Shown here: in pieces, positions 5,628 to 8,387 of the stretch
Layout of the letters: each line of letters opens with the position of its first letter
Numbering within the stretch: position 1 is the stretch's first letter
From: Slackia faecicanis
GTDB taxonomy: Bacteria; Actinomycetota; Coriobacteriia; Coriobacteriales; Eggerthellaceae
Reading direction: 5' to 3'
Assembly: GCF_003725295.1 (NCBI RefSeq)
Contig: NZ_QICB01000001.1
Coordinates: 310,001 to 374,000 of the forward strand
DNA: 64,000 nt
The notes under the pieces: generated by a model
Databases searched by the model: none
The model's input: only the letters and a program-made list of their open reading frames with translations
What the model was told of the DNA's origin: nothing
Made by a program: the position numbers and the translations under genes

Positions 5628-6485
5628 CTACTGCTTCAGCGCTTCGACGCTTGCACTCTTGCCAGGATAGACGCTCAAAGGCTCGAAGTGGATCTTGGCC
5701 ACGCCCGCCAGATCGGTGCCGTTCTGAGCATTGTAATCGTCCAGATACGGCTGGTGCTGGAAGTAGTTGGCGTCGAGGTCGCCTTCGGAAAGCGCCACAT
5801 TGGGCTGCACGTAATCGGTGAATTCGACCACTTCGAGCACCCAGCCCTTCGCTGCCAGCACGTCTTTCACCTGAGCGAGGATCTCGGCATGGGGCGCGGG
5901 CGATGCGCCTACCTTGATGACGACGTCGTCGCCTTCCGCCTGCGGGATATCGCCCGCCGCGCCCGGCTCGAACACGGCCGTCACGGCGCCGCTATAGGCG
6001 GCGGCGATGAACTCCTGCACCTCGTCGCTTTGCAGCGCCGCCAGAAGCGCCGCGGTCTTGACCGAGCCCTCATCGCCCGCACGGACCACGATCACGTTGG
6101 CGAACTTATCGGCAGCGGCCGAAGCGGCATCCTCCGAAGCGAACGCGGTAGCCGGATCGAGCCCTGCGCCGATCGCGTAATTGCCGTTGATCACCGCCGC
6201 GTCGACATCGGCCGTCACGCGCGGCAGCGACGCCGCCTCCGTCTCGACGATTTCGATGCCGTAGGGGTTTTCGACGATGTCGTTTTTAGTCGCCGCAAGG
6301 CCCGCGCCTTCGGCCAGCGTGATCAACCCCTGGTCTTCCAGCAGCAGAAGCGCTCGCGCCTCGTTGGTGGCGTCGGAAGGAACGGCGACCTGCTTGGCCG
6401 CGCCGCCGCAGCCGGCAAGCGAGAACGCAAGCGCGAATGCCGCTGCGAAACCTGCGCACGACAGGATGAATTTCTTGAATTTCAT
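5628..6485 (-). CDS. metQ: D-/L-methionine-binding lipoprotein MetQ (NlpA family)
   Basis: The 285-residue protein has a type II signal peptide ending in the lipobox LAGC (lipidated Cys at about 26). It is therefore anchored to the outer face of the membrane. The body matches NlpA/MetQ in length and order: an HAEIL-type motif near the mature N terminus (GASPAPHAEIL), DYVQPN, and DLDANYFQHQPYLDDYN. It captures methionine for the MetI/MetN importer. Two features suggest expression partly separate from metNI: a 166-base gap after metI with a small hairpin, and a 7-base-pair inverted repeat directly before metQ. Binding-protein excess over the membrane parts is usual for such importers. Confidence 0.93.
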   Translation of the reverse strand: MKFKKFILSCAGFAAAFALAFSLAGCGGAAKQVAVPSDATNEARALLLLEDQGLITLAEGAGLAATKNDIVENPYGIEIVETEAASLPRVTADVDAAVINGNYAIGAGLDPATAFASEDAASAAADKFANVIVVRAGDEGSVKTAALLAALQSDEVQEFIAAAYSGAVTAVFEPGAAGDIPQAEGDDVVIKVGASPAPHAEILAQVKDVLAAKGWVLEVVEFTDYVQPNVALSEGDLDANYFQHQPYLDDYNAQNGTDLAGVAKIHFEPLSVYPGKSASVEALKQ

Positions 6486-6651: not shown

Positions 6652-7329
6652 CTAACGCAAGCGGTGATCCGTCCTGCGCGCCGCAGCGCTGGCCAGGCTC
6701 TGCGCCAACTGCACGATGACGATACACAGCACGATCGCCGCGATCATCACGTCGTCCTGATAGCGCTGGTAGCCGTAGCGGATGGCGATATCGCCCAAGC
6801 CGCCCGCGCCCACCGTGCCTGCCATGGCGACGAAGCCGAACAGCGTGATGAACGTGATGGACAGACCGCGGATCAGCGAAGGAGCGCTTTCGGCCAGCAG
6901 CACTTTGAACACGGTCTGCGCGGTGGAGGCGCCGAAGCTCGATGCGGCCTCCACCAGGCCCTCATCGACTTCTGACAAGCTCTGCTCGACCATGCGTGCC
7001 ACGAAGGGAACCGCCGCCGCGGACAGCGGCACGATGGCGGCGGCGACGCCGAGCGACGTTCCCACGATGGCGCGCGTCGCAGGGATCATGAACACGATCA
7101 GGATGATGAAGGGAATGGAGCGGCCGATGTTGACAAGCCATCCGACGACCGCGTTGAGCACGCGATGCGGATGCAGGCCGCCCGGCGCCGTGAGGACGAG
7201 CAGAACGCCCAGGGGAATGCCGAGCGCGTACGCGAACGCCGTGGAAAGCGCGGTCATCACTACGCTGTCCACCGTGCCCTGCGCCATGAGCGCGCCGTAC
7301 TGGTCGAGAAACGATGCGATGGACTCCAT
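6652..7329 (-). CDS. metI: Methionine ABC importer permease MetI
   Basis: The 225-residue inner-membrane protein has about five hydrophobic helices and the EAA loop typical of binding-protein-dependent permeases (EAASSFGASTAQTVFKVLL). Length and sequence fit MetI, which forms a homodimer through which methionine passes. Its ATG follows the metN stop codon directly (TAAATG), so translation is coupled to metN. The AAGGCGG ribosome site lies inside the end of metN. Confidence 0.93.
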   Translation of the reverse strand: MESIASFLDQYGALMAQGTVDSVVMTALSTAFAYALGIPLGVLLVLTAPGGLHPHRVLNAVVGWLVNIGRSIPFIILIVFMIPATRAIVGTSLGVAAAIVPLSAAAVPFVARMVEQSLSEVDEGLVEAASSFGASTAQTVFKVLLAESAPSLIRGLSITFITLFGFVAMAGTVGAGGLGDIAIRYGYQRYQDDVMIAAIVLCIVIVQLAQSLASAAARRTDHRLR

Positions 7330-8118
<789 letters not shown>

Positions 8119-8181
8119 GATTCCTCATACATACCATAGGGGGAAACAACGAGAATGCGGCACGATACGGCCGCCCGGAAG

Positions 8182-8274
8182 CTAGGCCTGAGTATCGGCC
8201 CATGCGCCGATAAACCCAGGCTTGGGCATGTGCATCGGCATGAAGCTCATGGTATGTGCGGAAACGAAAATCAT
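8182..8274 (-). CDS. Methionine-rich leader peptide of metNIQ (30 aa), leaderless start
   Basis: This 30-codon frame begins MIFVSAHTMSFMPMHMPKPG and ends in TAG. Five of its first 16 residues are methionine, with codons 9, 12, 14 and 16 clustered. It lies between a good promoter and metN. The -10 box ends at 8282, so transcription should start at about 8275-8274, on the A of its ATG. It has no ribosome site and would be translated as a leaderless mRNA, which is common in Actinobacteria. The segment at 8221-8206 (codons 18-23) can pair with 8199-8186, and 8197-8185 can instead pair with 8172-8163. This is the layout of a ribosome-controlled attenuator. No T-run follows either hairpin, so the output step is unclear. 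The function is inferred. Confidence 0.55.
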   Translation of the reverse strand: MIFVSAHTMSFMPMHMPKPGFIGAWADTQA

Positions 8275-8275
8275 G

Positions 8276-8309
8276 CGAATCACTATAGTGCGTTAGAGTG
8301 ATTCGTCAA
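8276..8309 (-). promoter_or_regulatory. metNIQ promoter overlapped by an operator
   Basis: On the minus strand TTGACG (8309-8304) and TATAGT (8287-8282) are 16 bases apart. A perfect inverted repeat, CGAATCACT at 8276-8284 and AGTGATTCG at 8297-8305, spans the region from the -35 box to +1. CACTATAGTG at 8281-8290 is itself palindromic. A repressor bound here would block transcription. Confidence 0.7.
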
Positions 8310-8325
8310 GAAGAAATATGAAAAA

Positions 8326-8352
8326 AGCCGCCCGTTTCGGTAACGGGCGGCT
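8326..8352 (-). terminator. Terminator after zinc-ribbon gene
   Basis: An 11-base-pair stem AGCCGCCCGTT/AACGGGCGGCT with a 5-base loop is followed by TTTTTTC on the minus strand. It ends the phoH-era-zinc-ribbon unit just upstream of the metNIQ promoter. Confidence 0.92.
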
Positions 8353-8387
8353 CGATGGGCCGAACGCGTTTCAGGCGACGATGCGCG

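Follow-up and report, generated by a model that had tools for sequence, protein, structure and literature searches.

Methionine genes are best known under the control of SAM riboswitches, T-boxes or repressors. In the LEU element, found upstream of leuA in Actinobacteria, a run of Leu codons in the leader pairs with the leuA Shine-Dalgarno (SD) sequence (Seliverstov et al., 2005; PMC1262725); for methionine operons the same paper reports that no structure was conserved, and it refers to evidence that regulation does not need the Leu codons. Leaderless short ORFs encoding poly-cysteine are described as attenuating downstream genes in mycobacteria (Canestrari et al., 2020, according to passages in PMC9031893 and PMC13236596). 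A leaderless leader peptide, metL, precedes metNIQ in Streptomyces lividans with no typical terminator; it was reported from one genome, and its mechanism is only proposed (PMC8079986).

The window analyzed here is the whole stretch of 64,000 nt from Slackia faecicanis (contig NZ_QICB01000001.1, positions 310,001 to 374,000), in which a methionine-rich frame precedes metNIQ. Like the LEU element, its leader RNA appears to form a base stem from regulatory codons and the target SD around two internal helices; it differs in the amino acid (methionine, not leucine) and in that a pseudoknot is described for LEU. The poly-cysteine attenuators, as the citing papers describe them, resemble it in using a short ORF that contains codons for the amino acid under control; that ORF is leaderless in their case and probably so here, but they involve cysteine and mycobacteria. 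S. lividans metL, reported as leaderless, precedes the same operon; its peptide (MSTTSDRTPATEATTTPGARCMCRRMCAF) contains just two internal Met together with three Cys, and metL anticipates the idea while showing no visible sequence similarity. In Trp-type attenuators, as is proposed for the present leader, RNA folding depends on where the ribosome stands among the codons of the amino acid being sensed; these leaders do not conserve the Trp-type terminator or the 2:3 antiterminator. We infer that the leader would work like the LEU element and the leaderless poly-cysteine leaders, and would fall outside the Trp-type family as tested.

Promoter, leader frame and target genes

All features below are on the minus strand of the window. 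A promoter scan returned TTGACG-16-TATAGT as its sole site (0.3 expected in shuffles), with the -35 hexamer TTGACG at 8304-8309 and the -10 hexamer TATAGT at 8282-8287, 7 nt before the leader ATG; this is the promoter named in the first-pass annotation. From its position, the window transcript would be expected to start at or near that ATG. The leader ORF (8182-8274) consists of 30 codons (8274-8185, ATG at 8274) and a TAG stop codon (8184-8182), and encodes MIFVSAHTMSFMPMHMPKPGFIGAWADTQA. Translation of the frame gave Met codons at 9 (8250-8248), 12 (8241-8239), 14 (8235-8233) and 16 (8229-8227), as had been annotated, and this cluster (8227-8250) is matched by an enrichment of in-frame ATG across leaders.

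The leader stop codon is separated by 63 nt from metN (7330-8118), encoding a methionine ABC transporter ATPase (best NCBIfam model TIGR02314, 3e-93, below the curated cut-off; Pfam ABC_tran). It is followed by metI (6652-7329), encoding the permease (NF008049 MetI, above cut-off), and metQ (5628-6485), encoding the substrate-binding lipoprotein (PF03180 NlpA, 2.5e-73; NCBIfam MetQ models below cut-off). This lipoprotein appears to be circularly permuted, with residues 31-171 corresponding to positions 98-235 of the NlpA profile and the first part of the profile seemingly coming after them. The protein is matched end to end in five other Slackia genomes, and its halves occur in swapped order in more distant relatives.

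The leader promoter is directly preceded by a strong intrinsic terminator (8325-8353), which belongs to the gene upstream. The promoter is itself spanned by a dyad, CGAATCACT-12-AGTGATTCG (8276-8305), perhaps an operator, which has one more site in the genome, with 3 mismatches, and is absent from most relatives (L006 carries CGCTTTA-11-TAAAGCG). The dyad was rejected as the main regulator, its exact copy being present in the window genome only.

Distribution and coding evidence in Coriobacteriia

Among 138 Eggerthellaceae genomes, 85 contain metN, and the upstream regions of approximately 70 metN loci were read (some loci being the same genome from two sources). A homologous leader precedes metN in 24 of the 138 genomes, covering 12 genera; these were retained from 26 genomes matched by a covariance model built from Eggerthellaceae leaders (R1), the other two (G133 and G081) being doubtful or false. 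The first-pass annotation had proposed aligning related leaders. Once aligned, the frame and its Met codons were found to be conserved in the 24 genomes, and hairpin P1 (described below) carries compensatory changes; the frame is kept in other families as well. Slackia equolifaciens (L035) is among the species that carry the leader.

R1 matched 86 of 398 Coriobacteriia genomes, a few by chance, and 40 of the match regions were read individually; most of the leaders read at class level precede metN (peptide example, MITTAAHITMMMVMEMPSPGHFVMSRGQRGHAETGRLR). A second model (R2), built from 15 class leaders, matched 114 of the 398, again with a few by chance, and recovered the window leader at its exact start although no Eggerthellaceae had been used to build it. 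Covariance-model matches L210, L211, L277 and L278 were set aside as doubtful or false. In further families, a relative with its own SD (FVMMMDMMMTQPG) precedes metY (TIGR01326, above cut-off). These metY-type leaders have 4-6 internal Met codons (peptide example, MVRLSAFVMMMDMMMTQPGS) and were classed as SD-led because GGAGGTG lies 11-14 nt before the ATG in 27/27 examined. Genome G243 combines two leaders of the metY type with one that precedes metN. In genome G018, the leader occurs a second time (L212, G018:C53:11-113), at the end of a contig that does not extend to the gene it would control. In relatives without the leader (e.g., L012 and L018), metN seems to lie directly 3' of the end of a MetQ-like gene, and a leader is therefore not expected there.

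Outside Coriobacteriia, a 296-genome sample of the phylum yielded two R1 matches only (L240 and L243); neither is established as a leader, and L240 appears to lie inside a coding region. A comparison of the leader with Rfam covariance models gave no family matches, in keeping with the earlier statement that the leader holds no SAM riboswitch, and no account of this element was found in open-licence literature. SAM-I riboswitch matches occur elsewhere in the genome (G000:C1:104141-104230 and C1:415975-416067; L281 and L282), one barely above and the other barely below the gathering score.

ATG triplets were counted by frame. They fall 69 in frame versus 3 and 5 out of frame in Eggerthellaceae leaders, 125 versus 10 and 4 in other metN-type leaders, and 152 versus 3 and 17 in metY leaders. 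Eggerthellaceae leader peptides are 25-30 codons long (38 in L027), with Met at 12% of internal codons and, almost without exception, H at codon 7; the Met codons stand immediately before strand 1 of P1, and the stop codon immediately after strand 2. The start of strand 1 varies in offset from 36 to 51 nt, yet is always in phase 0. In 45/48 metN-type leaders, 7-9 nt separate the -10 box from the ATG, and in Eggerthellaceae leaders the box is preceded at 16-17 nt by a hexamer of the TTGAC/TCGAC type. A simple search for an SD motif before the ATG of metN-type leaders matched none. The metN-type leaders are probably leaderless, the -10 to ATG spacing being the geometry expected of leaderless transcripts. 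Conserved frame, in-frame ATGs and -10 spacing together support the initial proposal that a leader peptide with Met codons, whose frame is probably leaderless, acts in cis on metNIQ.

Pairings of the leader RNA

Two hairpins were identified. P1 is formed by strand 1 (GCCUGGGUUUAUCGGC, 8206-8221), right after the Met codons, and strand 2 (GCCGAUACUCAGGC, 8186-8199), right before the stop codon; both strands are conserved with compensatory changes, and in L188 the P1 sequence is replaced with its pairing retained (GGUCUGAG/CUCGGACC). The pairing of 8221-8206 with 8199-8186, one of the two annotated initially, is real. P2 (GCGGC-8-GCCGC, 8157-8174) follows the stop codon and has a counterpart with compensatory changes in other families. 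The other annotated pairing joins 8197-8185 to 8172-8163; the window allows it, through CGAUAC:GUAUCG and a bulged GGCC:GGCC, but it is lost beyond the nearest relative, L004, as judged by inspecting leaders. The leader RNA is foldable, as annotated. By itself, the window leader has a fold that exceeds shuffled sequences by a small margin (z -1.9); the argument rests on conservation.

Comparative evidence points to a third pairing, missed in the first-pass annotation, that would join codons of the leader to the SD region of metN. This base stem (P0) was delineated by MFE folds and duplex permutation tests. Its 5' strand (8249-8263) comprises UUCC (8263-8260) and ACAUACCAU (8257-8249), and its 3' strand (8121-8137) comprises AUGGUAUGU (8137-8129) and GGAA (8124-8121), overlapping the metN SD GAGG (8126-8123); 8257-8249 would pair with 8137-8129, and 8263-8260 with 8124-8121. 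In leader sequences and whole-leader folds, P0 joins leader codons ~4-13 to the target SD segment. Duplex energies with own versus exchanged SD regions were -19.1 versus -15.1 kcal/mol in Eggerthellaceae (0/20000 permutations), -23.4 versus -21.5 kcal/mol in other metN leaders (p 0.0045) and -29.4 versus -24.0 kcal/mol in metY leaders (0/10000 permutations), in tests that take sequences as independent and with near-identical rows removed in the Eggerthellaceae set only.

In the Coriobacteriales alignment, RNAalifold placed P0 on the SD unprompted, and two-sided changes were seen in only 1 of 7 P0 pairs; in the metY alignment, the long P0 was not shown by RNAalifold. P0, P1 and P2 jointly scored above all 500 shuffles on five measures, mainly via P1 and P2. 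An SD-anchored alignment (Eggerthellaceae and one further family) left out L008, L141 and L190, which have no anchor motif, a decision made after the anchors had been seen; in it, 89% of core P0 cells were paired versus 20-49% when slid, and P0 covariation gave no signal above shuffles. Within Eggerthellaceae, no P0 covariation signal is obtained because the columns vary too little. The all-family alignment (A4) was not used, strand 2 being misplaced. For P0, these comparisons give good support from complementarity and weak support from covariation, and a base stem with the SD region appears better supported than a Trp-type switch.

Proposed attenuator and alternative explanations

We consider it likely that the leader is a methionine-responsive translational attenuator before metNIQ, in which Met-tRNA would be sensed through ribosome position; the start site, leader translation, stalling, and the direction and size of the response are all as we infer them. 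The transcript would begin at the leader ATG or one or two nt from it, and the 30-codon frame would be translated. With ample Met-tRNA, the ribosome would clear the Met codons and leave the leader; leader codons ~4-13 would then pair with the segment holding and preceding the metN SD, forming P0 around P1 and P2, and metN would be translated poorly. With scarce Met-tRNA, the ribosome would pause on the early Met codons and cover the 5' strand of P0, the SD would be free, and the importer would be produced.

The switch was modeled with a 28-nt ribosome footprint. In the window, the modeled probability of an open SD rose 13-180 fold with the ribosome A-site at codons 2-13 and was unchanged from codon 14 on; a ribosome at Met14 or Met16 had no opening effect. 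Averages of 19 Eggerthellaceae and 21 other leaders had the same shape with smaller effects. The modeled opening is positional and not Met-specific, any ribosome in codons 2-13 being sufficient; the gain relative to swapped 3' halves was not significant (p 0.13), and in some leaders (e.g., L008, L021 and L027) modeled stalling leaves the SD closed. What the model establishes is limited to the feasibility of the geometry.

The first-pass annotation had likened the leader to a Trp-type attenuator. In a transcription attenuator of that type, a ribosome at the Met codons would allow strand 2 to pair with strand 3, and P2 would otherwise terminate. Such a reading could draw on the window P2 and its tail (ATTCTCGTTG), which pass a permissive terminator scan, on L213 and L219 from other families, where GGCGGG..CCCGCC followed by TTCTTTTT competes with a hairpin that directly follows the stop codon, and on the U-tracts missing from some proposed actinobacterial attenuators. 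It is nevertheless unlikely: relatives beyond L004 do not keep the 2:3 pairing, only 5/50 leaders combine a stem with a U-tract (TTTT) behind it, and the annotated 1:2 versus 2:3 competition is not upheld. An intrinsic terminator was rejected as the general output on the same count, the tail in the window being weak. The annotation had also allowed for a translational output, and the rarity of terminator U-tracts and the complementarity of the leader to the metN SD region both favor this. Rho-dependent attenuation, with leader translation or stalling governing Rho access between the stop codon and metN, would account for the absence of a conserved terminator and has been proposed earlier for actinobacterial cys leaders, but it is very improbable, leaving unexplained the complementarity of leader codons to the SD region.

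The compact base stem with two inner hairpins is riboswitch-like, and some conserved positions lie outside helices, but a Met- or SAM-binding riboswitch with a chance frame is highly unlikely given that ATGs are nearly all in frame, indels before strand 1 keep the frame, P1 and the peptide end are replaceable (L188), the metY version gives the frame its own SD, and Rfam holds no match. A functional Met-rich micropeptide with incidental RNA structure would explain the conserved H and MPKPG residues; we regard it as extremely improbable, since much of the conserved part is paired RNA, base pairs compensate, and length and C-terminus vary widely. A point against the translational attenuator itself is that methionine shortage should limit initiation as well, and sensing of methionine by elongation is puzzling because Met is also needed to start the leader.

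The arrangement recurs across the class and also stands before a methionine-synthesis gene, and the probable role of the leader is therefore to turn on methionine supply when a ribosome stalls for want of this amino acid. On balance, we lean towards a previously undescribed, class-wide methionine attenuator of Coriobacteriia, in which a leader frame, mostly leaderless before metN and SD-led before metY, would sense elongator Met-tRNA, the Met-codon region would lie within the SD-masking strand, and import and synthesis would share one ribosome-sensing RNA. Being conserved among Slackia and its relatives in the gut, it offers a test case for elongation-based methionine sensing, and it suggests that leaderless-frame attenuators may be more widespread in Actinobacteria than catalogued.
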